Shown: positions 1-19,478 of the stretch, one piece after another
Layout: each line of letters opens with the position of its first letter
Numbering within the stretch: the first letter of the stretch is position 1
Assembly (NCBI GenBank): GCA_020061465.1
Contig: JAGUYG010000024.1
Span: 1-64,000 of the forward strand
From: Ignavibacteriales bacterium
GTDB lineage: Bacteria; Bacteroidota; Ignavibacteria; Ignavibacteriales; Ignavibacteriaceae
Direction of reading: 5' to 3'
DNA: 64,000 nucleotides
Position numbers and translations under genes: made by a program
Notes under the pieces: model-generated
Seen by the model: only the letters and a program-made list of their open reading frames with translations
Databases searched by the model: none
What the model was told of the DNA's origin: nothing

Positions 1-223
1 AATTTGAACGCAAAAATTAATTGGCAGTTTACAACGAAGAATGCAAGAATTAAACTAAAAAGGCTTTACCCGACACTACAATGTTGACGAGACACTAGTC
101 TCAAAGGATTTTAGTGATTTTATAGAGAAAAATGTTGAAAATGCAATTCTAAATGAAGCTAATTTTATTAAAGGATTCATTGTACACTTCGAATCAGTAA
201 TAGCATATTTTAAAAACAAATAA
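1..223 (+). pseudogene. csm2: 3' end of a csm2-like gene, apparently frameshifted
   Basis: The last ~50 codons before the TAA at 221-223 end in FIKGFIVHFESVIAYFKNK, which resembles the conserved C-terminus of Csm2, the small alpha-helical subunit of type III-A effector complexes. The position directly before csm3 fits. In this frame there is a stop at 56-58, while the upstream part reads openly in the neighbouring frame (NLNAKINWQFTTKNARIKLK). Removing one A from the A5 run at 57-61 would join the two frames. So either the gene is frameshifted or there is a homopolymer sequencing error. The 5' part is outside the window. The Csm2 call rests on the C-terminal pattern and gene order, so it is moderate. 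Confidence 0.5.
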
Positions 224-236
224 ATAGGAGTAAATC

Positions 237-866
237 ATGAAAAAATTGATGCACTATCAAAAAGGAACAGCTCAAATAGTATTACTATCGGGAATGCACA
301 TTGGCGGGTCTAAGGAATCAATAAAAATTGGCGGCGTAGATTCCCCAGTCATCAGAAATCCAATTACTAATCTTCCTTATATACCGGGCAGTAGTTTAAA
401 AGGAAGATTTAGAATGGCATTAGAGCTGAAGTATGATGACTACTCAAAAACTAATGCTGGTCCCTCGGAAGATTTAAATAATAATAGTCTTGTTGCAAAA
501 TTATTTGGAAGTGGAAGTCCACAAGGTAGTAACGAAGCTACTAGATTGATTTTCAGAGATGCAAAATTATCAGATGGATATGAAGACTATGCAATGGGCG
601 AGGAAAAGATGGAATTAAGAATGGACAGATCAAAATTGGCCGGTGCATCCACAGGTCCACGCACTCAAGAGAGAATAGCCGCAGGTGCCAGATTTGATTT
701 TGAAGTAATGATAAGAATTTTCGAATCGGACAACGAGGACTTATTTAAAAAACGTGTTGAAGAAGCAATGGCTCTAGTTGAAAATGAATATATGGGTGGA
801 TCAGGTTCGCGGGGCTATGGTCAAATAAAATTTGAGAATGTAAAATGGGAAAAAGTTAACATCTAA
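237..866 (+). CDS. csm3: Type III-A CRISPR RAMP protein Csm3
   Basis: Csm3 (Cas7 family) forms the crRNA-binding backbone of the type III-A complex and cuts target RNA. The 209-aa protein has the family hallmark region at about residues 19-50: LSGMHIGGSKESIKIGGVD, then PYIPGSSLKGRFR. Asp35 in the GGVDSPVI segment aligns with the catalytic Asp of characterised Csm3 proteins, so the RNase site looks intact. A C-terminal glycine-rich loop (GGSGSRGYGQIKFE) is typical of RAMPs. The length is at the short end for Csm3. GGAG at 227-230 lies 6 nt before the ATG. The stop is followed after one base by csm4, indicating one transcript. Confidence 0.9.
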   Translation: MKKLMHYQKGTAQIVLLSGMHIGGSKESIKIGGVDSPVIRNPITNLPYIPGSSLKGRFRMALELKYDDYSKTNAGPSEDLNNNSLVAKLFGSGSPQGSNEATRLIFRDAKLSDGYEDYAMGEEKMELRMDRSKLAGASTGPRTQERIAAGARFDFEVMIRIFESDNEDLFKKRVEEAMALVENEYMGGSGSRGYGQIKFENVKWEKVNI

Positions 867-867
867 T

Positions 868-1842
868 ATGAAAACATACATACTAACTCTAAAACAAAAA
901 TCCGGCCTACTTTCTCCTCTGCAATCAGATACAATATACGGACACTTTTGCTGGCGATTAAAAGAACGGCTTGGAACAGAAAAGCTTACCGAATTTATTG
1001 AATTGTTCAAAAACAGTAAACCGGTTTTTATTCTTTCTGATGGCTTGCTGAAAGTGAAAAATGAGATTCATTTCCCTCGCCCTTTTGTATTCAATAAACC
1101 AGAAACGAAAGAAAAGAAGGTTGATAAAATTCTTGAGTTTGTTGATAGGAAAAAGAGCAAAGAAAGAAATTACTTAACCCTATCAGAACTCAATAAATTT
1201 TTATCAACTGGGAAAATTAAACTTGAAGAAATTGAAGAAGATATTGATTCAAAAAAGACTAAAAAGAAAAAAATCTTTGAGGAGAGTCTCCGCGTTAGTG
1301 TTCAGATTGATAGAAATTCCTTTGCTTCTGCTGAAGGGAAATTATATTCATACAATCCAAAATTTTCCCGCGATGATGTTTCTTTTGTTGTTTTCATCAA
1401 AGTTCTGGATGAAGAAAAATTTAAAGAGTTTGATTGTAATAATATTCTTAAAGACACGTTCACTATTGGCTTTGGTAAAAAGAAGTCTTCCGGTTATGGA
1501 CAATTTGAAATTTTAGGTTTTAATGAATATGCAGAAATTATTGAGCCAACAGAATCAGGTCAATTTGTTGTCCTTGGTAATTATCTTCCATCAATAGAAG
1601 ACACAGTTTCTCCGATTGGTTATGATATAAATACAAAGTATGGCAAACTTGGTGAAGAATTTTCGCAATCAGAAAATCCTTTTAAGAATCCGATTGTTTT
1701 TTTAACTGCGGGTAGCTGTCTTAGAACGGAAAACAAAAAAGATTTTTATGGAAGAATTACTGATGAAGGTGAGGTGTCACATACAAACAAATTTGCCGTT
1801 CAGTTCGGCATGCCGTTCACATTAAAATTTAATTTACTGTAG
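868..1842 (+). CDS. csm4: Type III-A CRISPR RAMP protein Csm4
   Basis: Csm4 (Cas5 family) caps the 5' handle of the crRNA and contacts Cas10. The N-terminal segment SGLLSPLQSDTIYGHFCWRL (about residues 13-32) is the Csm4/Cas5-like signature. A glycine-rich loop GFGKKKSSGYGQFEILGF follows near residue 205. The middle (about residues 80-140) is lysine/glutamate-rich and poorly conserved, as is common for Csm4. The 324-aa length is normal. The start is 1 bp after the csm3 stop, and an intrinsic terminator begins immediately after its stop. A Csm5 gene would usually follow; none is seen. Confidence 0.85.
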   Translation: MKTYILTLKQKSGLLSPLQSDTIYGHFCWRLKERLGTEKLTEFIELFKNSKPVFILSDGLLKVKNEIHFPRPFVFNKPETKEKKVDKILEFVDRKKSKERNYLTLSELNKFLSTGKIKLEEIEEDIDSKKTKKKKIFEESLRVSVQIDRNSFASAEGKLYSYNPKFSRDDVSFVVFIKVLDEEKFKEFDCNNILKDTFTIGFGKKKSSGYGQFEILGFNEYAEIIEPTESGQFVVLGNYLPSIEDTVSPIGYDINTKYGKLGEEFSQSENPFKNPIVFLTAGSCLRTENKKDFYGRITDEGEVSHTNKFAVQFGMPFTLKFNLL

Positions 1843-1873
1843 CACAGACTATCAGTCTGTGTTTTTTTTATTT
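1843..1873 (+). terminator. Intrinsic terminator after csm4
   Basis: A perfect 8-bp stem (CACAGACT at 1843-1850 and AGTCTGTG at 1854-1861) with a 3-nt loop is followed by a run of T. It begins directly after the csm4 stop codon and probably separates the effector-complex genes from the CARF genes. The stem sequence resembles the ends of the GCACAGATT inverted-repeat elements at 4295 and 32393, so it may be a reduced relative of that family. Confidence 0.75.
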
Positions 1874-1884
1874 TATGGTTAGTT

Positions 1885-3132
1885 ATGGATAAAAGCAATC
1901 AAAACAAAAAAGTGTTAATAATGACAGTCGGAACCGGTGCTACCGGCGCAGACATTGCCCACGGATTATTTTTTTCTATCGAAAAACAAAATCCTGAGAT
2001 TGTTGTATTTATTACCTCATCTGAAAGTCGCCAATTAACTTTACCACACTTAAACAATTTACTGGATAAATGGGGTAAGAATATCCAAAAAGAGGAAAAA
2101 ATTATTGAGGAGATTAATGATTTTGAAAAGCTGCATAATCAGTATTCTGAATTAATAAAAAGCTATATCAGGAAAGGATATGACAAACAGAATATAGTAG
2201 TTGATTACACAAGCGGAACAAAAGCAATGTCTGCTGCTCTTGTAAGTTCTGGTTTAACTCTGGAAGTAGGCACTGTCTCTTATGTAATGGGAGATAGAAA
2301 AGAGGGCAGGGTTCAGTCGGGAACAGAAAGAATCAGTCCAATATCACCGACTTCTATTTTTTCTGCAAAAATGTTAAACCAGTTTGTTTCTCTTTTTAAT
2401 TTATATCAGTTTGAAAGTGCAATTGAATTAGTAAAAAACTTTAACTTTCATCCTGATTATAAAAACCGAGCCGATCTATTAGTTAACCTTGCCAGATTTT
2501 TCTCAGCCTGGGATAAATTTAATTTTTCTGATGCGTTTAACCTGCTTAAAAATCTGCGCGATGATAAACTGCAGGAAATACGGCTAAAAGGAAAATTTGA
2601 AAAGATGTTCAGACCTTTACTTATTGAACTTAAAAAAAGTGAATTGAATTATGAGAAGGTTGATGATCTTATTTTTAACTCTGAAAGAAGAGCATCTGAA
2701 GGTAAATATGATGATGCAGTAGCAAGATTGTATCGTGCTTTAGAAATGCTTGGACAAATAGAATTTGAAAAAGAATTTAAATGTAAAACTGATGATGTGA
2801 TTTTAGAGAATCTTCCTGATTCAGTAAGGGAGTCAGTAAAATTCAAATATCAGAGTCATAGTAATAAGAAAATTCAATTACCGATGTTTAAGACTTTTGA
2901 CGTTTTATTGACAATAAAAAATCCTGCCGCTGTCATATTCGAAGAGAATAATATTAAAATCAAAGAACACATTAATAAACGAAATCATTCAATACTTGCT
3001 CATGGCAGCGTACCAGTAGCAAAAGAACACTTTGAGGATTTTTTTAACTTTTTAAGCAGCAAATTCTATTTAGGTTCAAATTCTAACCGGTATAATACAT
3101 TTTCCTTTCCACGCTTAACAAATAATTTTTAG
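1885..3132 (+). CDS. CARF-HEPN CRISPR-associated protein, Cas02710 (TIGR02710) type
   Basis: This is predicted to be a cyclic-oligoadenylate-activated ribonuclease accessory to type III interference, related in architecture to Csm6/Csx1. The N-terminal CARF-like domain (about residues 8-150) has the GTGATGADIAHGL and YTSGTKAMSAAL motifs expected to bind cyclic oligoadenylate. The C-terminal part is helical and carries KRNHSILAHG, in which Arg366 and His373 fit the HEPN R-X4-6-H RNase motif. The 415-aa length fits the family. It lies 42 bp after csm4, beyond a terminator, and 8 bp before the next CARF gene. Ligand ring size cannot be told from sequence. Family call is by motif recognition. Confidence 0.75.
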   Translation: MDKSNQNKKVLIMTVGTGATGADIAHGLFFSIEKQNPEIVVFITSSESRQLTLPHLNNLLDKWGKNIQKEEKIIEEINDFEKLHNQYSELIKSYIRKGYDKQNIVVDYTSGTKAMSAALVSSGLTLEVGTVSYVMGDRKEGRVQSGTERISPISPTSIFSAKMLNQFVSLFNLYQFESAIELVKNFNFHPDYKNRADLLVNLARFFSAWDKFNFSDAFNLLKNLRDDKLQEIRLKGKFEKMFRPLLIELKKSELNYEKVDDLIFNSERRASEGKYDDAVARLYRALEMLGQIEFEKEFKCKTDDVILENLPDSVRESVKFKYQSHSNKKIQLPMFKTFDVLLTIKNPAAVIFEENNIKIKEHINKRNHSILAHGSVPVAKEHFEDFFNFLSSKFYLGSNSNRYNTFSFPRLTNNF

Positions 3133-3140
3133 AGCTTTGT

Positions 3141-4244
3141 ATGTCTAAAAACATCCTTATCTGTGTAACCGGTTTAACTCCGCAGATAGTTACCGAAACT
3201 TTATTTTGTTTATCCGTTAAAGAAAAAACTCCCATCGATGAAATTTACATCCTTACCACCAAGCGCGGTAAATACGTAATACTCGGTAAGGATACCGCAC
3301 CAAATACACCTAAATCCCCCCTTAAAAAAGAGATTGAAAATTTGTGCAGGCAGTACAAATTGCCTTTGCCTAAGTTTGAAAATAGCGATACCCACATTAT
3401 AGCAGCTAAAGAAGAATCTATCGAGCTGCCCGACATAAGGTCGGATAAAGACAATATTCTTTTCCCCAACAAAGTTTCTGCTTTCATAAGGGAAAAAGCT
3501 GCTGATTTAGATAACACGCTTTACTGTGTTATAACAGGCGGCAGAAAATCAATGAGTGTGCATCTTGCAAACTCCCTTGCGCTGTTTGCACGAGAGAATG
3601 ATCAACTGCTGCATGTTTTAACAAAAGAAGAACACGAGTTCAAAGATTTTTATCCGAAGAATAAACAGCAGGCAAATGACCTTGAAATTTCCAAAATACC
3701 TTTTGTAAGGCTTCGTCCGCTCCTTTCAAAGCAGATGAAATCGGGACGGTTAATCAATTACAGCTTCGATAGGATTGTTTCATTCACTCAAAAGCAGGTT
3801 AAACTTGCAACCGGTAAAAATATTCTTTTTGTTGATATTGAAGGAAGAGAACTAAAATTCGGCGATGAGGTAATTTCATTAGAACCGATGGAGCTGCTTT
3901 TCTATTATCATTTTGTCGACAAAAAACAAAAGGGACTTGGCAAAATAAGCATACATGAAATTCAGGCACCCGTTACCTCAAATAAATTTTTAGAATATTT
4001 TAGTCAATTCTATCCGCACTGTTACATTCCGGATCAAAAGAAAAAGCAGTGGATAAAAACTGGTTTCAATGCCGAAGATTTCCGAAGCAAGCGCTCAAAA
4101 ATAAATCAAAAAATAAAGCGGCTTATTTCAGATCCCGACATTGCCGAATTATTCATAATTGATGTTGATAAAAAATGGGGGGAATCAAAGTATTTCATTC
4201 CTGCAGATAAAAATAATTTCAAAATAATTTACCCGCTTCTGTAA
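3141..4244 (+). CDS. CARF-domain protein of the Cas_NE0113 type with a C-terminal winged-helix-like extension
   Basis: The N-terminal ~195 residues match the NE0113 (TIGR02584) CRISPR-associated family: NILICVTGLTPQIVTETL at the start and ITGGRKSMSVHLANSL at about 131-146, a CARF motif. Short members of this family are annotated as ring nucleases or Csm6-like. Here another ~170 residues follow. Residues 225-262 and 313-360 read like an OmpR-type winged helix: a beta-rich start with ISLEPMELLFYY, then helices FRSKRSKINQKIKRLI and a final hairpin. No R-X4-6-H HEPN motif is visible in the C-terminal part, so RNase activity is not supported. It may be a cyclic-oligoadenylate-degrading enzyme or a ligand-responsive regulator. 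The CARF call is firm; the C-terminal fold is inference. Confidence 0.7.
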   Translation: MSKNILICVTGLTPQIVTETLFCLSVKEKTPIDEIYILTTKRGKYVILGKDTAPNTPKSPLKKEIENLCRQYKLPLPKFENSDTHIIAAKEESIELPDIRSDKDNILFPNKVSAFIREKAADLDNTLYCVITGGRKSMSVHLANSLALFARENDQLLHVLTKEEHEFKDFYPKNKQQANDLEISKIPFVRLRPLLSKQMKSGRLINYSFDRIVSFTQKQVKLATGKNILFVDIEGRELKFGDEVISLEPMELLFYYHFVDKKQKGLGKISIHEIQAPVTSNKFLEYFSQFYPHCYIPDQKKKQWIKTGFNAEDFRSKRSKINQKIKRLISDPDIAELFIIDVDKKWGESKYFIPADKNNFKIIYPLL

Positions 4245-4294
4245 CATTAATTAAACACCGGTCATTTCGTAACACGTACTTTTACCATTCATGC

Positions 4295-4406
4295 GTAGCA
4301 CAGATTATGCACGTCCATTTCGTTTCGAAATCTGTGCAGTAACTTTTGTTTTACTGTGTTTGGCACAGATTCCGACTCCCAAAACGAAACGTGTAATCTG
4401 TGCTAC
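4295..4406. repeat. MITE/REP-like inverted-repeat element, copy 1
   Basis: A 112-bp element has perfect 12-bp terminal inverted repeats (GTAGCACAGATT at 4295-4306 and AATCTGTGCTAC at 4395-4406). Internal half-sites (AATCTGTGC at 4329-4337 and GGCACAGATT at 4362-4371) let it fold as one long or two short hairpins. A second, diverged copy of nearly the same size and internal layout is at 32393-32501. It fills most of the 336-bp gap between the second CARF gene and cas1. No convincing gene lies here. Confidence 0.75.
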
Positions 4407-4580
4407 AAAAATTTATAAACATTTCCGAAACGTTGTTTTAATTTCAGCTTTATTTACACCAACTTATTTTTCCTGCACAATTTTGAAGAACAAAAAAACA
4501 TAATCATTAGTGTTCTATTTACGGGTGTACGATTATGCCCTTTGTTCAACTTCTTACAATTGATATTGGAGAGAATACCC

Positions 4581-5675
4581 ATGAAACAAAACCTTTACCT
4601 TTTTTCCGATACTGTAATAAAGCGAAAAGACAACTCTCTTCTGTGCGAAAAAATAATACGCGAAGCTGAAGAGGAAGATGACTTTTCGGAACGATCCTTT
4701 GGAGAAGACAGACAGCTTCAGCAGGAAGAATATTTCCTCGATCCCGATAGTATAATTCCCGCCGGAGATAAGAAATACATACCTATTGAAAGCATCGACT
4801 CTATTTTTACATTCGGGTCAGTCCGCTTCAATTCACGGTTCCTGTATTTCTTATCTCAAAACCGCATACCCGTTCACGTATTTAATTTCTTTGGCGGATA
4901 TGCCGGCTCATTTTTACCTTCCGAAAGAAATACATGCGGCACAATATTAATCGAGCAGGCGATACACTATGCTAATTATAAAAAGCGTATGTTCGTTGCG
5001 AAATTATTTACCACTGCTTCTGCAGCAAACTGCCTTGCTAATCTCAAATATCACATCAACCGCGGAGCGCATGTACGGGATGAATATCAATATATTGAAG
5101 ACATCATAGAATATTTCTCCAAAGCCGAGGATGTTCAGGAATTGTTTGGCATTGAAGGAAGAATCAAAAAGGCATATTACTCTGCATGGAAACATATTTT
5201 TAATTATCCAGTAGATTTCACACACCGCGTTAAAAATCCGCCCAACAACTTAATAAATGCGCTTATCTCGTATGGCAATGCCATTGTGTATTCTGTTTGT
5301 TTAAATCAAATTTATCAAACCAGGCTCTATCCCGAAATTGGCTTTATCCACGAAACAGGCGACGGCAAGCTGCCTCTTTGCTACGACCTGGCAGATATAT
5401 TTAAGCCGATTTTTACCGACCGCACTATCTTTAAAGTGATAAACAAAAATATGATTTCCGAAAAAGACGGCTTTAAAAAGAACGGGAGATACCTGCTTAA
5501 ACAAAGCGCAAAAAAAACATTTGTTACCGAGCTGGAAACAAAATTTCAAACTACTATTACTTTAGACGAAAACCGGAAGATGAGCTACAAGCGGATAGTA
5601 AAAGAAGAATGCTACAAATTAATTAAACACTTAAACGGCGAAGAAGAATATAAACCGTACATAACAAAATGGTAA
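4581..5675 (+). CDS. cas1: CRISPR integrase Cas1
   Basis: Cas1 is the metal-dependent integrase that, with Cas2, inserts new spacers. The 364-aa protein shows the expected active site: Glu192 in FGIEGRIKKAYY, His257 in GFIHETGDGKLPL and Asp272 in YDLADIFKP. The N-terminal beta domain is recognisable (LFSDTVIKRKDNSLL, then KKYIPIESIDSIFTFGSV) but is interrupted by an acidic insertion of about 35-45 residues (roughly 24-62). I chose the ATG at 4581 because TTGGAGAG stands just upstream and the protein then begins MKQNLYLFSD like other Cas1s; an in-frame TTG at 4542 would add 13 residues. The stop overlaps the first possible cas2 start. Confidence 0.92.
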   Translation: MKQNLYLFSDTVIKRKDNSLLCEKIIREAEEEDDFSERSFGEDRQLQQEEYFLDPDSIIPAGDKKYIPIESIDSIFTFGSVRFNSRFLYFLSQNRIPVHVFNFFGGYAGSFLPSERNTCGTILIEQAIHYANYKKRMFVAKLFTTASAANCLANLKYHINRGAHVRDEYQYIEDIIEYFSKAEDVQELFGIEGRIKKAYYSAWKHIFNYPVDFTHRVKNPPNNLINALISYGNAIVYSVCLNQIYQTRLYPEIGFIHETGDGKLPLCYDLADIFKPIFTDRTIFKVINKNMISEKDGFKKNGRYLLKQSAKKTFVTELETKFQTTITLDENRKMSYKRIVKEECYKLIKHLNGEEEYKPYITKW

Positions 5676-5695
5676 ACGAAGAAAACAGAAGGACG

Positions 5696-5962
5696 ATGTA
5701 TTACATTTTAACTTATGACTGCGGCTCGCCCAAGCGGCTGCCAAAACTGTTAAAAACGTGCAGGCGGTATTTAAACTGGGTGCAGTACTCCGTGTTTGAA
5801 GGCGATTTAACTAAGGGGCAATTTTTTGAACTGCGGGAACGGTTAGCAAAAATAATTGAAAAGAAAGAAGATTCAATTCTCATTTACTCAATTAGAAACC
5901 GTGAGGTTGTCGATAAAGAAATTTTAGGCATAGAAAAGAACGAAATTACTTTTATGATTTAA
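5696..5962 (+). CDS. cas2: CRISPR-associated endoribonuclease/integrase subunit Cas2
   Basis: This small ferredoxin-fold partner of Cas1 begins MYYILTYDCGSPKRLPKLLK, with the conserved Asp8 at the end of the first strand, and includes YLNWVQYSVFEGDL, typical of Cas2. I prefer the ATG at 5696 (88 aa) because the fold starts there and AGAAGGA precedes it closely. An ATG at 5669, overlapping the cas1 stop, would add nine residues without a visible ribosome-binding site. The leader and array follow immediately. Confidence 0.9.
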   Translation: MYYILTYDCGSPKRLPKLLKTCRRYLNWVQYSVFEGDLTKGQFFELRERLAKIIEKKEDSILIYSIRNREVVDKEILGIEKNEITFMI

Positions 5963-6081
5963 AAAACAGCTTAGAATCGCAATTTAAGGGTTAAACAACA
6001 CCTGACTTTTTTGAGATCGACAAAACACAAAAATTCAGTTAAATTCTTGACACGTACCTTAAAAACAGCGAATTTAGGGCT
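5963..6081 (+). promoter_or_regulatory. CRISPR leader with possible promoter
   Basis: This 119-bp AT-rich gap lies between cas2 and the first repeat. The repeats here are uniform while the last repeat at the far end is degenerate, so this is the leader side. TTGACA at 6047-6052 is a good -35-like hexamer; AATTTA at about 6071-6076 could serve as a weak -10. Promoter assignment is tentative because promoters in this bacterial group often differ from the sigma-70 consensus. Confidence 0.5.
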
Positions 6082-7100
6082 GTATGAATCGAACTATCAT
6101 AGAATTGAGACTTGATAGTGATCTGAATACTCTTTAGTCTGAGATTCAAGTATGAATCGAACTATCATAGAATTGAGACCCCCTTAACAGTTTTTGGATG
6201 CGGTTCTGCAATACAAGTATGAATCGAACTATCATAGAATTGAGACTTTATTATCTGAGAGATTTACAAGTGCACTACCTATGTATGAATCGAACTATCA
6301 TAGAATTGAGACCCAGTGATAGTGAACTTTCCATTCTCGATTTTAATTTCGTATGAATCGAACTATCATAGAATTGAGACTCACTTCCGATAAGTGCATT
6401 TCCTCTTACAATGTAGTATGAATCGAACTATCATAGAATTGAGACTAATTTTGTAATAAGCTGCTTTATTAGTTGTGCCTCCCGTATGAATCGAACTATC
6501 ATAGAATTGAGACCATAATCAACATTATTATTAGTAATGCTCCCGTTATAGTATGAATCGAACTATCATAGAATTGAGACTAGAACGATAATATCCTAAG
6601 GAGAAATGACTATAAGAGTATGAATCGAACTATCATAGAATTGAGACTCACCAGCAAGTTTTTTTGTCTCTTCTAAAATTTCGTATGAATCGAACTATCA
6701 TAGAATTGAGACTCGGTTATCTTTTTTATAGTAGGCATCGTCGGGATGGTATGAATCGAACTATCATAGAATTGAGACTCTTTTACCATTTTACCGTTCC
6801 TTTCGTTAGTTTTGTATGAATCGAACTATCATAGAATTGAGACTTTTTTCGTTATAAACATTCCACCATACTTTAACCAGTATGAATCGAACTATCATAG
6901 AATTGAGACTTACTCCTTCTCGAGTTTTGCACCCGCTAAATTTGTATGAATCGAACTATCATAGAATTGAGACATAAATGTCCATGTGTCGTAATGTTCG
7001 TTCTTCCGTATGAATCGAACTATCATAGAATTGAGACGGTTATTTAACTTGTAATTTTTTTAACTGCAATCACGTATGAATCGAACTATCATAGAATTGA
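6082..7100 (+). CRISPR. CRISPR array, 16 repeats of 30 nt, 15 spacers
   Basis: The repeat is 30 nt; its first half is GTATGAATCGAACTA and its second half TCATAGAATTGAGAC. Copies start at 6082, 6150, 6217, 6283, 6351, 6416, 6484, 6551, 6618, 6683, 6749, 6814, 6880, 6944, 7008 and 7074. The first 15 are identical by eye. The last (7074) matches for 27 nt and then diverges, marking the leader-distal end. Spacers are 34-38 nt and I see no duplicated spacer. Spacer origins cannot be decided without a search. The array belongs with the adjacent cas1-cas2 and the type III genes. Confidence 0.98.
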
Positions 7101-7952
7101 TCCCGATACTCGTGCAAGTCCGGTGAATCGGGACTGCTAAACTCGCAGGACTTGCAGCCCGAATTTTTTTTTGCATTGTGGTCTGTGTGATTTACTTTCT
7201 CAACAAACAACTATCTACAAACCACAAACGAATGCATGAATCGAACTACTTGTCCGGCGTAACGCAGTGAAGACGGATCATGGAATCCGTCTTTTGTTTT
7301 CTAATGAAACCAAAAGCCGTGACAGGTTGAAGCTTTGATGTCTGTGAATCGGGACTGCTCGAAGACTCGCAGGACTTGCAGCCTGAATTTTTTTTTGCAT
7401 TGTGGCTTGTGTGATTTACTTTCTCAACAAACAACTATCTACAAACCACAAACGAATGCATGAATCGAACTACTTGTCCGGCATAAGGCAGTGAAGACGG
7501 ACCTGTCCGGCGAAATGTAATGGAGACGGATCATAGAATCCGTCTTTTGTTTTCTAATGAAACCAAAAGCCGTGACAGGTTGAAGCTTTGATGTCCGTGA
7601 TTCGGGACTGCTAAACTCGCAGGACTTGCAACCCTAATATTATTTGCATTATCGTTTGTGAGATTTACTTTCTCAACAAACAACTATCTACAAACCACAA
7701 ACGAATGTATGAATCGAACTACTTGTCCGGCATAACGCAGTGAAGACGGATCATAGAATTGATCCCGATACTCGTGCAAGTCCGGTGAATCGGGACTGCT
7801 AAACTCGCAGGACTTACTCCGGTGAAATGTAATGGAGACGGGTCATAGAATCCGTCTTTTGTTTTCTAATGAAACCAAAAGCCGTGACAGGTTGAAGCTT
7901 TGATATCCGTGATTCGGCGCTGCTCGAAGTCTCGCAGGACTTGCAGCCGAAT
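7101..7952. repeat. Diverged tandem-repeat block containing split CRISPR repeats
   Basis: Three to four diverged units of roughly 220-250 bp follow the array with no gene. Shared segments include CAACAAACAACTATCTACAA (7201, 7432, 7676), GACTGCTAAACTCGCAGGACTT, and AAACCAAAAGCCGTGACAGG. Each unit has the first half of the CRISPR repeat (7234-7248, 7458-7472, 7707-7721), then one or two copies of a 29-nt element (7249-7277; 7473-7501 plus 7502-7530; 7722-7750), then the second-half sequence TCATAGAAT. At 7751-7762 the second half continues as TCATAGAATTGA and runs into the same flank as the terminal array repeat at 7101. Confidence 0.85.
7272..7300 (+). terminator. Terminator-like hairpin downstream of the CRISPR array
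   Basis: GACGGAT (7272-7278) pairs with ATCCGTC (7285-7291) and is followed by TTTTGTTTT, the form of an intrinsic terminator for array transcripts. The same hairpin recurs at 7525-7549 and, with one G-T pair, at 7837-7860. The stem arises from the junction between the 29-nt element (ending GACGGA) and the flanking sequence. Confidence 0.6.
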
Positions 7953-8043
7953 AAATAATTTATGTTTGGAATTTATTAGCTTTTCTTATTTTACAACAGA
8001 CGATTAACAACAAATAATTAACAAGTTCGTAAATGAAGACGGG

Positions 8044-8101
8044 CTTGCCCAGCGAAACGAAGTGAAGGCGGGCTTGCCCGGCAAAATGTAATGAAGACGG
8101 G
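8044..8101. repeat. Two tandem copies of the 29-nt element
   Basis: Copies at 8044-8072 (starts CTTGCCCAGCGAAACGAAG) and 8073-8101 (starts CTTGCCCGGCAAAATGTAA) abut exactly. They belong to the same family as the 29-nt units inside the split CRISPR repeats upstream, sharing the start CTTG-CCGGC and the end GAAGACGGR. The family therefore exists outside the CRISPR context. Confidence 0.75.
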
Positions 8102-8110
8102 TCTTATCGT

Positions 8111-8218
8111 AAATCCCGAAGGGATGAAATTATTATAGATTATGAAAGTAAAATTGGACCTACAAACCCCGTAGGCTTTCGGGGGTGATACAGACTATAT
8201 GTCATTCCTTCGGGATTT
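8111..8218. repeat. Long inverted repeat in the 7953-8363 intergenic region
   Basis: AAATCCCGAAGGGATGA (8111-8127) and TCATTCCTTCGGGATTT (8202-8218) are inverted repeats with one mismatch over 17 bp. They enclose a smaller GC-rich hairpin around 8167-8186. This is a typical dispersed palindromic element. The rest of 7953-8363 shows no gene. Confidence 0.7.
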
Positions 8219-8363
8219 TATAATTATCGAATATAATTTTTGTTTATAATCATTACACCACTTCGCGGTTTGTTGTGTGTTGGAATTATTCGATGTTGGT
8301 AACACAATAAAACTAAAATTGCAACCTACCACCAACCACCTACCACCAACAACCCACAGAGTT

Positions 8364-11075
8364 TCACTTCATCACCTGCATCTTCTTTGAATATAATTTT
8401 CCGTTCACGCTTATTGTGTAGATGTATGTTCCGCTTGCAAAATCAGATGCATTGAACGGAACTTTATACCTCCCGGCTGTTTGATATTCATTTACAATCG
8501 ATGATATTTTTCTCCCGAGTATATCGTAAATCTTTAAGACAACAAAACTATTTTCCGGCAGGTCATAACTTATAATTGTTGCCGGATTAAACGGATTCGG
8601 ATAATTCTGATGCAATTTAAATTTATCGGGAAGATCGCCAGATCTCTCATCGGCTATATCGGTTATTTCTTGTAAAAGGGCAAACTTAATTGCATCCGCT
8701 CGAAGTACATCGCCTGCGGTACTTTTACCTGAATTAATAATTCTCACTTCAGCAGGAATTTCTGGGGGAAAATAATACCTTCCTATCTCAACCCAATCGC
8801 CGCTGCCTTCGTTTTGATCTACATAAATGGAATCAAGAACAAAGCCGGCTAAGTTAATTTCATACAAAGCATTATTAGCCGAGTTTACTGTTTGGGGAAG
8901 AATATGATAAAGAGAATAAATGCCGGGCTTATTCAGCTTTGCAGAAAACGAAGCCCATGCACCGGGATTTGTATTTATAAAAACATACCTGCTGCTGGTT
9001 CCGTAAGCCTGTGCTACGCTTGTCTGCCAATTACCATGCTCTTTATAAAATAGAGAATCATCATTATCAACAATTTTAAAATAAAGTTGAACGTCTGCCG
9101 AATATAGGATTGGATATTCGGGCATAAGATAATCGTTGCTTTGAATAAACAATGTGTCATTAATCTTCCCTGTCTTTGCAGCGTGAAAAGCCAAAGGAAG
9201 ATTTATTCTACTCATGCCTTCAATAATCAGCGGAAAAGAAGCCTTTGTACTTATCGAATTTTCCTTAGATGTTATTCCGAAAACTGTAATTTCATTAATG
9301 CCTTTATTAATTATTTCTAAGCTTTTTATTACTGTATCTTCTTCAGCCGTTTCGCCAAAGTCAATATATTTTTGAAGCGTATATAATTCTCTGTCTCTAA
9401 CAAGTGCTGAAAATTTCATTACATCGGCAGAAACATATTTCCCGGATTGGTTATTCCCGGGTGCAATCATTTCAACATAATTTCCGCTGCCTGCCGTAAA
9501 GTCGGCAGTACCGATATAAACCCAATCCATTTGCGGAATTGATTCACTGAAAGTAATTGTGTCGATGGGATTGTAGCTGCTGTAAATCATAAAATCAATT
9601 TCGGATGACGGATTATTAGATTGCGGAACCTGAATAAAGATGTTGTACAAACCGGTATGCTCAATAACCGGATTCCAGCGCACTCTGGCTGTTAAGTTTT
9701 CTGTCAGCATTAACATTCTTGAATCAATGCCCCAGGCAGTTTCTGAAGAAGTAAACCAATTCCCTTCTATTTCGCTGTAGCCTTCATCAAGATTATCGAT
9801 GTAAATCTCATCCGGAAGATAATTGATGAAACGGGTGGATAAATTTCCAAATGTATCTGTTACAGCTACACCGGCTTTTGCTAAAATATTTTTATCGAAA
9901 CTTTCAATTGTTCTCCATGTATTCGTGCCGGTAGATTGAGACTCAACAATATGATAGCGCTCGTATACATCTTTAACTGCAACAAAAGGTACATCCTGGA
10001 AAATCGATTCATCAGTGTTTATAACGAAATAAATCTCCGAACCGATTTGCTCTTCTTGAATTGAAAGCTGCGGCGGTGTAAAATCAGTTGACTGCCGCCA
10101 AAGCTGCATCGCCTCTACCGCAGTGTTGTATTGAAATTTTACGTCGGTATATTTTGCTGCCGAGTTATGAGCCAGGTTATTAATTTTTCTTATATTATCA
10201 AGAAAATCCGATTCGGGAAGATGCGCCCAAAAACATGCAACTTGATCTGTACCTTCGTTAGCTTTTTTAAAAATACCATCCATCATTTCTTGTGTAACGC
10301 TTCCCATAAATTTAGATCTTACATTCCATCCTTTCCCGTCGCCCGGAATCTGATAATTTTCCGGCGACGGTCTGAAAGGCACAAAATCGTTAGGTGCTTG
10401 AGACCAGTCGAATGTATTGTCAAGAGGTTCTACCGTATCGGTTCTTTTTGCGGGCCAATCGTTATGAAGACTATAAGGAAGCAGCTCGTCCAACCTTTTC
10501 TGCCACTCGTTATCCATATAGTGCCATCCGCTTCTAAAAGAAACAGGATATACATTTTCTTCCAAAAGAAATTGAGCAACGGTAAGGTTGAAATCGTCAA
10601 GACAGTCGTTAAAATTTAATGCTTGATTCCACCAGTACTTGCCATCACCCGAATAATCAAACCAATGGAAAGTGTGATAGTGCAGTGAAAGTTCATCTCC
10701 AAATTGCTGAATAGCATCGCCGTGATATTTTTTCATAAGATACAGAGTCATTGTATTAGCGAGGGGCATATTTTTGTTTTCTGCAAAACGAAAAATATTA
10801 CCCGCCATCATCCACCAGGTAAGCTTAATTGTATTACCGTATGAGTCGCGGATTTGGTCACGAAACGACGGGTCCATAACCTTATAAGCATTGCCGAGTG
10901 GATCGATATAAAGACTGATTCTATAAAAGCAATGATACCTCGCAACGTTCATTCCCTCCCATATTGCAGTATCCGAGCCGATTACTAGATAAACTTTTCC
11001 TGAAGGAATTATGGTTGAGCAAAAAGTAAAGAGAAATATTAGAGCTGATATTAATGAGTATTGTATATGTTTCAT
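8364..11075 (-). CDS. Secreted deacetylase/hydrolase-like protein with golvesin-like domains and T9SS sorting domain
   Basis: A 903-aa exported protein with an N-terminal signal sequence (hydrophobic stretch at about residues 6-24). Residues ~25-330 resemble a polysaccharide-deacetylase/glycoside-hydrolase-like catalytic region, with DELSLHYHTFHWFDYSG and SFRSGWHYMDNEW as candidate active-site motifs; the substrate is unknown. Two segments (about 435-560 and 690-810), with AWGIDSRMLM and YGTSSRYVFI motifs and closing with DVMKFSAL and DAIKFALL, look like golvesin C-terminal-like domains found with surface lyases. The last ~85 residues (HQNYPNPFNPATIISYDLPE to KKMQVMK) are a type A T9SS sorting domain. 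The gene stands alone on this strand. The catalytic call is inference. Confidence 0.65.
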   Translation of the reverse strand: MKHIQYSLISALIFLFTFCSTIIPSGKVYLVIGSDTAIWEGMNVARYHCFYRISLYIDPLGNAYKVMDPSFRDQIRDSYGNTIKLTWWMMAGNIFRFAENKNMPLANTMTLYLMKKYHGDAIQQFGDELSLHYHTFHWFDYSGDGKYWWNQALNFNDCLDDFNLTVAQFLLEENVYPVSFRSGWHYMDNEWQKRLDELLPYSLHNDWPAKRTDTVEPLDNTFDWSQAPNDFVPFRPSPENYQIPGDGKGWNVRSKFMGSVTQEMMDGIFKKANEGTDQVACFWAHLPESDFLDNIRKINNLAHNSAAKYTDVKFQYNTAVEAMQLWRQSTDFTPPQLSIQEEQIGSEIYFVINTDESIFQDVPFVAVKDVYERYHIVESQSTGTNTWRTIESFDKNILAKAGVAVTDTFGNLSTRFINYLPDEIYIDNLDEGYSEIEGNWFTSSETAWGIDSRMLMLTENLTARVRWNPVIEHTGLYNIFIQVPQSNNPSSEIDFMIYSSYNPIDTITFSESIPQMDWVYIGTADFTAGSGNYVEMIAPGNNQSGKYVSADVMKFSALVRDRELYTLQKYIDFGETAEEDTVIKSLEIINKGINEITVFGITSKENSISTKASFPLIIEGMSRINLPLAFHAAKTGKINDTLFIQSNDYLMPEYPILYSADVQLYFKIVDNDDSLFYKEHGNWQTSVAQAYGTSSRYVFINTNPGAWASFSAKLNKPGIYSLYHILPQTVNSANNALYEINLAGFVLDSIYVDQNEGSGDWVEIGRYYFPPEIPAEVRIINSGKSTAGDVLRADAIKFALLQEITDIADERSGDLPDKFKLHQNYPNPFNPATIISYDLPENSFVVLKIYDILGRKISSIVNEYQTAGRYKVPFNASDFASGTYIYTISVNGKLYSKKMQVMK

Positions 11076-11227
11076 GCAGTTCTCCTGAAATTTAACGGCG
11101 GGATTAAACGGTGAATCTTAAAACTTTAATTCAGTTTTACTTGCTGCCGATGTCCATCCCCCGTTAAGTAAATAAATTACAATAACAATATCGGGTTAAT
11201 GAGAAAAAGTTTCAATGCACTTTAATT

Positions 11228-12223
11228 TTATTCAAGCAAATTCGGTGTGGTTATAGTTTTGGATTGGTTTACTAATTTAAAAAGAGCCGGATCATTCAAA
11301 ATCTCTTTTTCAAATGGATTACTGTTTTGCCAGCCTGTTTTTCCTGTGCTGCGGTAATGTTCTAAGCGTCGAATTGTTATTTCACAAAAGACGGGATCGC
11401 AGTCAATTGTATAACATTTTCTGTTCAGCTTTTCGGATGCAAGAAGCGTAGAACCGGAATGACTAAAAAAATCAATTATTAACGAATTTTCTTCCGAGCT
11501 TGCCTTAATAATTCTTTCAATTGCTTTTAGAGGTTTTTGAGCGTAACATCCGTTTACATTTTCTTCCATCCGATAGAATACCTGTTGTACATCAACCCAA
11601 ACATTTCCGGCACGGATATTTTTTGATTTACTCCTCTGAAGATTTTCAGTAATCTCGCCGTTAACTTCTTTATAATAACCGCGCAGTATTTTCGGTATAT
11701 CAGTATACTCCGCTTCAACATTAAAATCAGGTTTGCCTTTTGTATAGTATAAAAGTTCTTGCCTTACAGCCATCCAATTTTTTGACGTTCCATAGCCGCG
11801 TTGATTCCTCATAGTAATAAAACTTCTCGGTTTGAAGGGAGTATCTCTCATCATTATCATAAACTCGGGAAGAGGCTGAAAATCTTTTTCTTGATCGGCA
11901 CCAAGCCAAACATACAGCGAACTATTTTCAGCAAGAGCCAATGTGGTATTGTCAATCCACTTTTTACACCAATCGATAAATTTTGTTGTATCGCGTAAAT
12001 CAAATGCAACAAGGTTATAAGGCGGGTCATGGATAGCAAGTACGGCTTTTTCATCTCCCATTAATTTTAGGATATCATCTTTATTTGCAGCATCGAAACA
12101 GCCGACTTTATGTCTTTCCTCAGGATCGATCCAAATCTCTCCCGGTTTTATTCTGCAGAATAGCAGAAGCTTTTCTCGAAGCTCGTTGTTTTTATCGATT
12201 CTTGATAATGGAAGTGAAATCAT
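11228..12223 (-). CDS. Orphan DNA methyltransferase, beta-class N6-adenine/N4-cytosine type
   Basis: A 331-aa AdoMet-dependent DNA methylase. The catalytic motif IV is IHDPPYNL (DPPY at 66-69), and the AdoMet motif I region, IIDFFSHSGSTLLASEKLNRKCY, lies near the C-terminus at about residue 245. That order (IV before I) is the beta class of Pfam N6_N4_Mtase. DPPY usually indicates adenine N6 methylation, but N4-cytosine is possible. No restriction endonuclease gene is adjacent, so it is probably a solitary methylase. The recognition site cannot be read from sequence. The carbonic-anhydrase-like gene lies 38 bp upstream on the same strand and may be co-transcribed. Confidence 0.85.
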   Translation of the reverse strand: MISLPLSRIDKNNELREKLLLFCRIKPGEIWIDPEERHKVGCFDAANKDDILKLMGDEKAVLAIHDPPYNLVAFDLRDTTKFIDWCKKWIDNTTLALAENSSLYVWLGADQEKDFQPLPEFMIMMRDTPFKPRSFITMRNQRGYGTSKNWMAVRQELLYYTKGKPDFNVEAEYTDIPKILRGYYKEVNGEITENLQRSKSKNIRAGNVWVDVQQVFYRMEENVNGCYAQKPLKAIERIIKASSEENSLIIDFFSHSGSTLLASEKLNRKCYTIDCDPVFCEITIRRLEHYRSTGKTGWQNSNPFEKEILNDPALFKLVNQSKTITTPNLLE

Positions 12224-12261
12224 ATTGGGTTAGAAGAGGTTATTAATTGAAAAAATCTTCC

Positions 12262-12825
12262 TCATAAAGCTGCCCGTTCATCAAGCTGATAAATCAGGTT
12301 ATCCTCTATTCTATAAAGCATCGGAGATATAGTAATCTTTGGATATCTTAAGCGCAGGCGTTTGGCTTCGTTTAAAAGAAAATCAATTTCATTTCCGATT
12401 TCAAACATAGGCGCGAAGTGCATAAAGTGCTCTTCTGCCCATACCGGTTCCCAGCCGGCTGATTCAACTAAGCCTTTGATAAACAGCTCCTTTCTGGAAA
12501 TTAAATTTACCATTCCGCATTGGTTGTGACCGATTAGCGCAATGGCTCGAACACCTCCAACTGCAATAGCATAAGAAACTTTGAATTCGCTGTATCTTAA
12601 ATTAGCACCTCCGGCTCTAATAATAAAAGCAAAGTTATCCGGAATTCTCAAGTGCTTGCGGTTGTCCATGCACATGCCGATCAGTAGTTGTGCATTTGAG
12701 TATTTTTCAAACGGTACGCCTAAGTTATGATACTCAAGCAGAAGTGCGATAGGCGTTTTTTTGTATGCTTCTAAAATATCTTCTTTTTTTTCTACTGCGA
12801 TTAAACGGTTCATATTTTTTATCAA
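12262..12825 (-). CDS. Beta-carbonic-anhydrase-like protein
   Basis: A 187-aa protein with the zinc-site layout of beta-carbonic anhydrases: Cys52 with Asp54/Arg56 in MCMDNR, and His100 and Cys103 in LIGHNQCGM. The usual C-x-D-S-R motif is C-M-D-N-R here, keeping the Asp-Arg dyad. Carbonic anhydrase interconverts CO2 and bicarbonate, but divergent relatives may have other roles. The sequence also has IIRAGGANLR, matching the R-N-A-G region in altered form. It could start at the second Met (residue 5). Confidence 0.7.
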   Translation of the reverse strand: MIKNMNRLIAVEKKEDILEAYKKTPIALLLEYHNLGVPFEKYSNAQLLIGMCMDNRKHLRIPDNFAFIIRAGGANLRYSEFKVSYAIAVGGVRAIALIGHNQCGMVNLISRKELFIKGLVESAGWEPVWAEEHFMHFAPMFEIGNEIDFLLNEAKRLRLRYPKITISPMLYRIEDNLIYQLDERAAL

Positions 12826-12999
12826 TAATTTCTCTGAGGATTAATTTAATAGATCCTAAGATGAATTTATTTCATTTGTAAAATTATCAGTTATAGCCTA
12901 AGTATAAAAATAGTAAAAAAACTAAAATTCATAATATAAAATCTTTTCGTTATCACTAAATTTGCGTAGTTATTTTTTCTAATAATAAAGATAATTTCA

Positions 13000-14289
13000 A
13001 TGAATATCACAAAGAGTAAACAACTTTTCGAAGAAGCAAAGAAATACATTCCCGGCGGCGTGAATTCACCTGTAAGAGCTTTTAAAGCTGTGGGCGGTAA
13101 TCCTATTTTCATCGAAAGAGGCGAAGGTTCAAAAATTTATGATGTGGACGGAAACGAGTACATCGATTACATCGGAAGCTGGGGACCGCATTTATTCGGA
13201 AACAATCCTCCTTTCATCAAACAAGCATTGTTAAGTGCAATTGAAAAAGGTACCAGCTTTGGCACTCCCACCGAAATTGAAGTTGAAATGGCAAAGCTGA
13301 TTACCGAGCTTGTACCTTCAATTGAAATGGTACGGATGGTTAACAGCGGAACCGAAGCAACAATGAGTGCGATACGGGCAGCGCGTGGTTTCACAGGTAA
13401 AGATAAAATCATAAAATTCGAAGGCTGCTATCACGGACACGCAGATCAGTTTCTTATTAAAGCCGGTTCCGGCGCATTAACATTGGGAGTTCCTACAAGC
13501 CCGGGTGTTACTAAAGCAAACGCAGCGGATACATTGCTTGCAGATTATAATAATATCGATTCGATTAAAAAATTAATTAGTGCTAATAAAAACAATATTG
13601 CCGCGGTAATCATCGAACCAATTGCAGGCAATATGGGTGTTGTAAGCTCAAAGAAGGGGTTCATCACCGAACTCCGCGAAATATGTAATGAAGAAAAAAT
13701 CGTTTTGGTTTTCGATGAAGTAATGACAGGCTTTAGGTTAGCACCGGGAGGCGCGCAGGAAATTCTCGGCATAGCACCCGATTTAACAACGTTCGGAAAA
13801 ATTATTGGCGGCGGGCTGCCTGTCGGTGCTTTCGGCGGCAAAAGTGAAATAATGGAAATGATTGCACCAGCCGGTCCGGTATATCAAGCAGGTACTTTAA
13901 GCGGAAATCCTCTGGCAATGTCTGCGGGTTATGCGGCGTTAAGCTATATTAAAGCACATCCTGAAATTTATACACGGCTTGAGGAAATGTCGGCATATCT
14001 CGAAAAGGGCTTAAGAAAAAATTTAGAGAAGTTAGAAAAAAATTATACGCTCAACAGAGTTGGATCGATGTTAAGTTTATTCTTCACTGAAGAAGATGTT
14101 GTTGATTTCAAATCGGCTTTAACTTCGGATACCGTTTTATACGGAAAGTATTTTAATAGAATGTTAGAGCAGAGAATTTATTTAGCACCGGCACAGTTTG
14201 AAGCGGTGTTTGTTTCGACTGCACATACGTATGAAGATTTAGATACAACCACACAGGCACATCTAAATGCACTAAAAGCTTTAGAGTAA
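13000..14289 (+). CDS. hemL: Glutamate-1-semialdehyde 2,1-aminomutase
   Basis: This PLP enzyme converts glutamate-1-semialdehyde to 5-aminolevulinate, the C5-pathway entry to tetrapyrroles. The start [20 protein letters not shown] and the segments [41 protein letters not shown] and [17 protein letters not shown] (PLP lysine in FGKIIGGG) are the family signature. Length 429 aa is normal. It is divergently oriented from the carbonic-anhydrase-like gene, with no other heme gene nearby. Confidence 0.95.
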
Positions 14290-14349
14290 AGTATAAATAC
14301 TAATGTTAATCCGCTTTAATTAATCGGCTTTTTGTTTGCAAAATAAAAA

Positions 14350-14381
14350 AGCCGCCTTTAAGTTTTTCACTCAAGGCGGCT
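14350..14381 (-). terminator. Intrinsic terminator between hemL and the beta-barrel gene
   Basis: AGCCGCCTT (14350-14358) and AAGGCGGCT (14373-14381) form a perfect 9-bp stem. On the minus strand the stem is followed by a T-rich run (A-run on plus at 14341-14350), so it mainly terminates the gene at 14405-15100. It may also stop hemL transcription. Confidence 0.85.
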
Positions 14382-14404
14382 GAGATTTCAGTTAAACTTA
14401 AATC

Positions 14405-15100
14405 TTACAAGTGAACGTTAAGAATAACACTGGCAGTACCAATTCCGAAGAAGGAAGCGCTTGGACCTTCGACAGTGGTGTTGCCTGATTTTACTTCAGG
14501 TTTTCCCAAGCTGGAGAATCCCAGGACATATCTTCCGCCAAGAGACAGCCCCTCAGTGAAATACCAATCAAAGCCAAGATTAAGCCCTGCGCCAAATCCA
14601 CTGCCGGATGTTTCTGTCTTACTTGTAGTACCACCACCCGTAGATTCACTGGTTGTGGAGTACGATCCAAAATTAAAATTGACTCCTATATATGGAGATA
14701 CCCCATAAAGCGCATTTAAATGATAATTGATATCTACCAGCAAGCCTATCGTAGTAGAGGATAATTCATTTTTTATAATGTTCGGACTTGTGCCGGTTTC
14801 CTGTTCGGCTGTCATGCTGCCAAAATTGACACCAACGCCAACACCAATTTCATTTGTAACAAAATATCTGAAACCCGCTCCGGCAAGATCCATTGAACTA
14901 ATGTTGCCGCTTTGTGAGTAGACTGAAACAGTCGATACTGAAACAGGATTCAGATTGGATTGGAAAGGAGTATAATGAAATACTAATGATTTTGCACCGG
15001 CTTTTACTTCAGGTTTAGGTCCATCATATTTGTTAACCTGAGCTAAAGCCAAGAAAGAAGAGAAGAACACAACGAGAAGAACCGTAAATACTTTTTTCAT
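14405..15100 (-). CDS. Outer-membrane beta-barrel protein
   Basis: A 231-aa protein with a clear signal peptide (MKKVFTVLLVVFFSSFLALAQ, cleavage near residue 21). The remainder has alternating hydrophobic residues and Gly/Ser/Thr-rich turns typical of an 8-10-strand barrel: VGVGVNFGSM, ISPY-like VSPYIGVNFNFG, SGFGAGLNLGFDWYFTEGLSLGGRYVLGF. It ends SVILNVHL, resembling an outer-membrane insertion signal. The class is that of small porin-family/OmpW-like barrels; substrate unknown. AAAGGAG stands just before the ATG. Confidence 0.75.
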   Translation of the reverse strand: MKKVFTVLLVVFFSSFLALAQVNKYDGPKPEVKAGAKSLVFHYTPFQSNLNPVSVSTVSVYSQSGNISSMDLAGAGFRYFVTNEIGVGVGVNFGSMTAEQETGTSPNIIKNELSSTTIGLLVDINYHLNALYGVSPYIGVNFNFGSYSTTSESTGGGTTSKTETSGSGFGAGLNLGFDWYFTEGLSLGGRYVLGFSSLGKPEVKSGNTTVEGPSASFFGIGTASVILNVHL

Positions 15101-15376
15101 ATCGCACTCCTTTAAGTTGTTTTTGAATTTAGTTATTTCTAACCGATCCTATTCCAAATTTAATTGCATGAAATAAGGATTTTATTTCTGCCGCCCAAAA
15201 ATTGCTCAATTATAGCATAATTGTCAAATATTATTTTCACTTTCGCGGTATGATAAAGATCAACAAAATTTTATGGTTTTCACCTTGCCCACATCAATTA
15301 ATCGATTTAAATTGTGTCTTAGTTATCGTGTTTCTTTTAACATTATTATAATCAAATTTTAAAAAAGAATTGAATT

Positions 15377-18214: not shown

Positions 18215-18292
18215 GTTTAGAGAATAAGAAGTTCACTAATTGTTAGATTATTTTGGAACAATGATGAGATGGTCTATCTTTATTTTGATGAT

Positions 18293-18595
18293 ATGAGAAT
18301 TTCTAAAAAGAAAGCCACTGACTTTTTTCTAATAATATTAATCTTTGCCATAACCGGCACTACATCCGTCTTTCTCTCTGCGGTTATAATGAATGAATTA
18401 GGATTTGAACGATGGAGTTTGGGTTACATATTGGGTTATATATTTATAATACTGCCGTTGTACCACTTACTGTTATTGGGTTATGCTTTTGTATTTGGAA
18501 GATTTGAATTTTTTTATGGAAAGATAAAAAGGATTGTTTTTCTACCTAAGAAGTGGTTAGACAAATTTATCGTGAAGAACGATGCAACTCACTGA
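18293..18595 (+). CDS. Small membrane protein, DUF6787-like
   Basis: About 100 aa with two hydrophobic segments (FFLIILIFAITGTTSVFLSAVI and GYILGYIFIILPLYHLLLLGYAF) and a basic tail. The motif LPLYHLLLLGYAFVFGRFEFFYGK resembles the small Bacteroidetes family DUF6787. The Met at 18293 (MRISKKKATDFF) seems a more natural start than 18269. Function unknown. Confidence 0.55.
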   Translation: MRISKKKATDFFLIILIFAITGTTSVFLSAVIMNELGFERWSLGYILGYIFIILPLYHLLLLGYAFVFGRFEFFYGKIKRIVFLPKKWLDKFIVKNDATH

Positions 18596-18691
18596 ATGAA
18601 TATCCTCTCTAAAATAATTACTACTATTAATTTTTCGATTAATCTTATTCATAACAGAATCATTTAGCGGTAATCGTCTTAATTATTCGTA

Positions 18692-19117
18692 TTATTTTGA
18701 AGATAGATAAGTACGTATTTCTTGTTTGAAAAGATTGTAAACCATTTTTGAGTTCTCTACTAAGGGCTCCATTTTATCTGGATATAAATCCAGCGCATAA
18801 GCATGACTGAAGAAATGACGAAATGCTAAATATTGTCCTAAATAATTTTTACAGCTTTCAGATATTATATTGTTTTTTGAGGCTGCCTCAAGTAAATCCT
18901 TATGCCAAGATTTACCCTCTGGTAAAAATATTTTTTGTGAGAACAATATTTGTTTTAAAACATTTTCGATGCCATTATAAAAATTATGTATAAATGCCGC
19001 AACACCGGCTAATTCAAGTGTTGATAAATATGGAAGGTTCGAAGCGGATGGCATTTCGTTAAATACGGCTTCCATGTTTTCAAATTCTGCTTGTATCATT
19101 TGAGATAATTTATCCAT
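18692..19117 (-). CDS. HepT-like HEPN toxin of a HEPN/MNT toxin-antitoxin pair
   Basis: A 141-aa all-helical protein with the RNase motif R-X4-H-X-Y in FRHFFSHAYALD (Arg100, His105, Tyr107), as in HepT toxins. It overlaps by 8 bp the upstream gene for an MntA-type nucleotidyltransferase, the usual type VII arrangement in which MntA neutralises HepT by adenylylating the Tyr. The N-terminal part resembles the HepT-like family rather than classical DUF86. Confidence 0.75.
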   Translation of the reverse strand: MDKLSQMIQAEFENMEAVFNEMPSASNLPYLSTLELAGVAAFIHNFYNGIENVLKQILFSQKIFLPEGKSWHKDLLEAASKNNIISESCKNYLGQYLAFRHFFSHAYALDLYPDKMEPLVENSKMVYNLFKQEIRTYLSSK

Positions 19118-19379: not shown

Positions 19380-19478
19380 ATTTAAATCTAATTTAAAGAA
19401 GACTGTTTTGCAACCATCACTATGGGAGAATCAGAAACCGTAGAAAATAATTTTTACCTGAGCTCAGTATATTATTTT

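Follow-up and report, generated by a model that had tools for sequence, protein, structure and literature searches.

Small palindromic elements in the middle of CRISPR repeats of an Ignavibacteriales bacterium and its relatives

The trailing end of a CRISPR array in an Ignavibacteriales bacterium raises the question of how repeats come to be split through the middle by a short unit of other sequence, and whether this reflects one local accident or a process that recurs. The window, that is, the whole stretch of 64,000 nucleotides that was analysed, contains a Type III-A locus with csm3, csm4, a TIGR02710 CARF protein, a ring nuclease-like protein, cas1 (4581–5675, plus strand, matching TIGR03641/TIGR00287) and cas2 (5669–5962, plus strand). 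The TIGR02584 match of the ring nuclease-like protein (3141–4244, 367 aa) covers only its first ~177 residues, and ~190 C-terminal residues lie outside the match. A presumed leader, cas2-proximal in the likely orientation of the locus, occupies 5963–6081 on the plus strand and precedes an array of 16 repeats of 30 nt (GTATGAATCGAACTATCATAGAATTGAGAC; 6082–7100, plus strand). We place the trailer to the right of the array because the 3' end of the repeat is ATTGAGAC and the last repeat is degenerate. This terminal repeat (7073/7074–7100) is missing the final GAC and continues into TCCCGATACTCG...GAATCGGGA; at its boundary (...AATTGA/TCCCG) it is followed immediately by a TCCCGAT...ATCGGGA hairpin element (7101–7155, plus strand). 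In having lost its last 3 nt it fits a degenerate terminal CRISPR repeat, whereas the trailer behind it, built of tandem units with an interrupted repeat, is different. Breaks of this second kind, in which repeats end at AATTG(A) and are followed by TCCCGATA...ATCGGGA hairpins, recur in the window (7101–7133) and in genomes G119 and G274 (L129, L139, L209).

Farther right, the first half of the repeat returns three times on the plus strand, at 7236–7248 and 7460–7472 (13-nt matches) and at 7707–7721 (15 nt, exact). The first copy is followed by one 29-nt unit, here called E (7249–7277), the second by two in tandem (7473–7501 and 7502–7530), and the third by one that splits the repeat (7722–7750). 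Pieces of the second half of the repeat then follow, namely TCATGGAAT at 7278, ATCATAGAAT at 7530–7539, ATCATAGAATTGA at 7750–7762 and TCATAGAAT at 7843–7851. The first-pass annotation, made from the letters of the DNA, had described 7101–7952 in just these terms, as three half-repeats that each lead into a single or a double 29-nt unit and then part of the other half, and its description is exact. When the 29-nt unit is taken out of 7707–7762 the two halves rejoin exactly and 27 nt of the CRISPR repeat are recovered, as had been claimed. The longest exact match to the repeat within 7101–8110 is 15 nt, a length reached in none of 2000 dinucleotide shuffles, whose maximum is typically 6–8.

The half-repeats belong to a tandem trailer unit of ~224–250 nt. 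Each unit runs in the order of a constant A-rich flank, the first half-repeat, one or two E units, TCATAGAAT, CCGTCTTTTG... and GTGAATCGGGACTGCT...; likeness among the units is 100/96/81% for 7141–7277, 7365–7501 and 7614–7750, and 100/79/89% for 7253–7383, 7506–7636 and 7818–7948. The third unit is a chimera. The sequence right of 7762 had been reported to be the same as that right of 7100, and indeed 7750–7815, a 66-nt tract of half-2 plus flank, is 100% identical to the array end at 7088–7153. If these 65–66 nt are left out, the third unit aligns to the second; the tract lies between the two 29-nt units of the third, the latter of which is a truncated 27-nt variant (7816–7842). Because of this array-end copy, the exact junction at 7707–7762 is probably secondary, and units 1 and 2, where the first half-repeat, the 29-nt unit, TCATAGAAT and CCGTCTTTTG follow each other, give the better view of the original insertion products. 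About 2.6 further E-family units stand in tandem at 8032–8101 (plus strand), outside any half-repeat context, alone between the trailer and a gene for a T9SS-sorted secreted protein (8364–11075, minus strand).

The first-pass annotation proposed that a small element entered a terminal repeat and was then duplicated along with it, and suggested that relatives be searched for the trailer and for the 29-nt unit at other sites. A DNA search with the whole trailer returned no orthologous trailer from 391 genomes of the class and 80 of the family, only short E-like or half-repeat matches. The exact repeat of the window had no match in GTDB contigs or IMG/VR, where a relaxed repeat pattern matched only one MAG (JAHJVF01, G060, of another family), and an Rfam search of positions 1–20000 of the window gave no match. 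Further E-like sequences are found at other places of the window's own genome, and an E-like motif is present in 13 of 61 family genomes, against one control match.

At the level of the repeat, hairpin inserts at the equal point were found in ten genomes from at least three families (G000, which is the window's own genome, G060, G119, G306, G318, G337, G274, G086, G424 and G211). The genomes are mostly draft or MAG assemblies, one per species, and the window's genus is represented by a single genome. A class-wide pattern search matched the repeat type in 71 of the 391 genomes; the inserts were identified by a gapped search over 72 genomes, many of whose rows were chance matches excluded by eye, and by inspection of fetched arrays, with G211 added from a later position scan. 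In this gapped search most genomes with the window's repeat type had no insert. Loose regular-expression counts of interrupted repeats (60 and a long list) were dropped, since they were mostly artefacts running from a first half to the next repeat.

Inserts are found in terminal repeats and also inside arrays with ordinary spacers. The terminal repeat of G424, reached by the DNA search of family genomes, reads GTTTTAATCGAACTA/CTTGTCTCGTCATCACAAAGTGATGACGGA/TTATAGAATCCGTTTTC, both halves matching its own array's repeat, and G060 likewise carries an E-like unit at the equivalent point of its terminal repeat. In three interior repeats G060 is split by a different hairpin, TCCCGATTCAC...ATCGGGACATGC. 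The terminal repeat of G086 is split precisely as TTTTAATCGCACTA/TCCCGTTAAACGGGACAAG/TAGTAGAATTGAAAT; G119 has CTTGTCCCGCCCTGGCGGGA in 14 of 31 repeats, most of them followed by spacers of normal length; G337 has TCCGCCACGGGCGGACAGG and variants in mid-repeat, and G318 and G274 contain genuine mid-repeat hairpins. G306 combines CTTGTCCCGTTTGCGGGA with the reversed TTCAGCCACGGCTGACAAG, two different inserts in opposite orientation at one site of one tandem unit. Trailer units around an interrupted half-repeat, like those of the window, are also present in G274, G306, G337 and G060. The array of G119 (L129, 3121–5645, reverse strand) shows rearrangements as well: it has duplicated blocks, with one spacer at both 3463 and 5557, and several constant ~140-nt trailer-like units among ordinary spacers, so that array-end segments have been copied inward. 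In G337 (C155, L137, reverse strand 560–1920) the repeats fall into two groups, and the ~1.3 kb between them looks foreign and includes what appears to be a piece of a transposase.

Could all these cases descend from one ancient insertion into a terminal repeat, inherited class-wide, in which recombination kept the halves matched to their arrays while the insert diverged or gave way to another? The E-like units at the equal point in G000, G424 and G060 are clearly homologous, terminal repeats are able to recombine with array repeats, and G000 and G424 have in common both an E / TNATAGAAT / CCGT arrangement, which could be due to shared descent, and a TNATAGAATCCGT arrangement downstream. However, the inserts elsewhere show no sequence relationship and lie in either orientation, each half tracks the repeat variant of its own array, interior repeats of G119, G337 and G060 also carry inserts, and most genomes of this repeat type have none, all of which makes common descent somewhat unlikely. 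The same observations amend the proposal of a small element in a terminal repeat followed by duplication. The E unit is a dispersed element, the repeat is split exactly in half, and repeat and flank were duplicated; but the event was not a single local accident, since an E-like unit occupies the equivalent point of the terminal repeat in G424 and G060, whose repeats are of other variants, and other relatives carry unrelated hairpins there in both orientations. Had relatives contained the 29-nt unit at this position as an ancestral part of the repeat, the proposal would have fallen; the position is indeed shared, but the variety of inserts favours recurrent insertion.

The point of insertion is precise. 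In a position scan of 38 arrays with 974 intact repeats, which gave 26 rows of which one artefact was removed, all 25 interrupted repeats break at nt 14–16; a wide range of splits was allowed, although splits very near the repeat ends would be missed. Some of the scanned arrays had been fetched for having a loop insert, which biases the frequency; the position is less biased because the loci of G119, G337 and G211 were fetched by repeat content alone. The break site is a 3-nt loop between the arms of a mini-stem, CTA.TAG or CCA.TGG. These arms pair in 18 of 18 repeat variants, and four show a double change from T-A to C-G, a covariation that involves one pair and may stem from a small number of events. 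In RNA folding of intact CTA-type repeats the optimum lacked the 3-bp stem, which was not retained in the interrupted window and G060 sequences either. An extended stem was supported for G119 (z = -3.7) and G086 (z = -3.1), whereas neither G060 nor the window unit had such support.

One could assume that insertion strikes anywhere by chance and that selection alone leaves the loop inserts, as these leave crRNA processing undisturbed. Loop inserts do keep the stem arms and the handle, and selection on the trailer end should be weak. Yet hairpins in spacers should do almost no harm, and none of 900 spacers measured contains a hairpin insert; only two exceed 48 nt, and both hold partial repeats. 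Selection alone thus does not explain the position. Copies outside CRISPR, too, lie in palindrome centres, and we regard this explanation as unlikely.

What, then, are the inserts? They are 15–43 nt long and show no target duplication beyond a 1-nt ambiguity. Most consist of a palindrome adjoining CTTG or CCTG (CAAG or CAGG if reversed), in either orientation; the tagged palindromes among the mid-repeat inserts came from a search with no condition on the tag, and one tag-frequency estimate was discarded because its loci had been fetched by the tag itself. The tag is absent from G274, G211 and the in-array insert of G060, and the E unit of the window has only a weak 4-bp stem (TCCG/CGGA). The tagged palindromes are dispersed. 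The motif TCCCG-N-CGGGACARG occurs at more than 100 places, spread over 14 of 16 genomes, against 2 for a reversed control; 13 of those in G119 are the CRISPR copies. Individual genomes contain 11 (G000), 22 (G060) and 16 (G306) tagged palindromes, with 0 in the control for each. This dispersal bears on the idea that no insertion took place and that the units are instead relics of a decayed array or aberrant products of Cas1-Cas2. Trailer ends do decay by known processes; however, the inserts are dispersed palindromes present elsewhere in their respective genomes, and Cas1-Cas2 integrates at the ends of repeats, not in the middle, which renders this idea most improbable.

The dispersed copies also tend to sit inside other palindromes. 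Among 30 copies, which include two CRISPR copies (G086 and G119), the mean flank complementarity is 3.4, against 2.44 (sd 0.21) for re-paired flanks, and none of 300 shuffles reached it. Clear nested cases are L221 in the window's own genome, with 12 complementary bases, and copies in G180 and G125. In several intergenic regions of the window's own genome (L042–L044, L048–L050, around position 1501), CCCCTCT...AGAGGGG palindromes have the E-related motif CCGTCCGAAACGAAGTGAAGGCGG at their centre, as hairpins nested outside CRISPR.

Several known systems resemble these inserts in part. REP elements are likewise short palindromes (20–40 nt), one end of which carries an unpaired 4-nt tag; they are dispersed and mostly intergenic, and some REP families insert inside other palindromes (PMC3733652); their tag, however, is GTAG/CGTC, whereas here it is CTTG/CCTG (PMC3733652). 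No flanked RAYT gene was found here, and the target is the loop of the CRISPR repeat. By tag and RAYT flank alike, the window element falls outside the GTAG/CGTC REP families. Genes for Y1/RAYT-like transposases are present in eight of nine genomes, G337 having none, and their flanks contain no CYTG hairpins except for one distant case, with a detector that needed a stem of at least 5; RAYT was rejected as the mover for want of flanking tagged hairpins. The window's own genome has ten Y1 (IS200/RAYT-like) matches, and the five whose flanks were checked have no CYTG hairpins. MITEs were ruled out as well, as these have terminal inverted repeats, a target-site duplication and a length of 70–300 bp.

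A closer parallel is SMR-A of Haloquadratum, which inserts within palindromes without target duplication (PMC3119063), although it is ~110 bp long, archaeal, and targets IS605-type transposons and PATEs (PMC3119063). Cyanobacterial small dispersed repeats are very small mobile modules too, and one of them, SDR5, has the HIP1 palindrome as its exact insertion site (Elhai 2008, cited in PMC4390886); they differ in sequence and phylum, and the accessible part of PMC4390886 does not report them in CRISPR repeats. With SMR-A and SDR-like elements the inserts share the preference for palindromes, seen in the loop position in CRISPR repeats and in flanks of dispersed copies that are complementary above chance, and in its manner of working the window element would resemble a small mobile repeat that inserts into palindromes.

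We therefore consider it probable, though far from certain, that REP-like mobile hairpins target hairpin loops, here that of the CRISPR repeat, and that tandem duplication of the trailer followed. The 29-nt unit would be one of several families of very small mobile REP-like hairpins that insert at palindrome centres without target duplication, perhaps by way of cruciform or single-stranded DNA. In the repeat's mini-hairpin (CTA.NNN.TAG or CCA.NNN.TGG), the 3-nt loop at the centre would be one such target. Insertion into the loop would spare both arms of the stem as well as the 8 nt at the end of the repeat (ATTGAGAC), presumably the crRNA handle, and for that reason may be tolerated by crRNA processing in arrays with ordinary spacers; it is commonest in the terminal repeat, where there is no downstream loss. 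In the window, one terminal repeat would have received E, repeat and flank would then have been tandemly duplicated about three times, and later the 66-nt array-end tract would have been copied into the third unit, giving rise to the perfect junction at 7707–7762. More tentatively, a novel enzyme may move CYTG-tagged hairpins into single-stranded or cruciform loops, with CRISPR repeats preferred for their exposed mini-hairpin.

A hairpin at the end of an array might also be kept for a function. Terminator-like hairpins lie on the plus strand of all three trailer units (7269–7294, 7522–7547 and 7834–7859); in the first, the end of E is followed by the CRISPR half-2 TCATGGAAT as the loop and by CCGTCTTTTG. 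Such a hairpin may end the pre-crRNA transcript, as a by-product or as a function. If the hairpin in the terminal repeat were a conserved array-end element, most likely a pre-crRNA transcription terminator or processing stop, then the use of half-2 as a loop, the matching CGGAT..ATCCGTTTTC arrangement in G424 and the concentration of inserts at the trailer end would be accounted for. However, three hits for a GC stem with a T run against 1.7 +/- 1.3 in shuffles are not significant, and all three are copies of one unit; the inserts of G086 and G337 are not followed by T runs, and like hairpins lie inside arrays, where a terminator would be harmful. A selected function is thus quite unlikely, and insertion of mobile hairpins into the loop remains our preferred explanation.

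CRISPR loci have been described as fairly resistant to transposition, a MITE in a spacer being among the rare exceptions (PMC4390879, PMC3119063). MITE and IS insertions in CRISPR loci likewise place mobile DNA in an array, but those are rare single cases, whereas here there are many precise mid-repeat insertions. A literature search, mainly outside subscription journals, returned no earlier report of hairpins in the loop of the CRISPR repeat. Despite the reputation of arrays as poor targets, the exact middle of the repeat has been struck repeatedly by tiny hairpins in several bacterial families, also within arrays that have ordinary spacers, and no other spot in the repeat looks capable of accommodating added DNA. 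For array-finding programs this is a warning, as such arrays would be cut short or their repeat misread. The interrupted repeats are a natural test of what crRNA processing and the adaptation machinery tolerate, and the loop site is a clear target for learning how very small palindromic elements move. If an enzyme does drive the targeting of the loop, these bacteria would harbour a mobile element that homes to the CRISPR repeat loop and leaves immunity unbroken.
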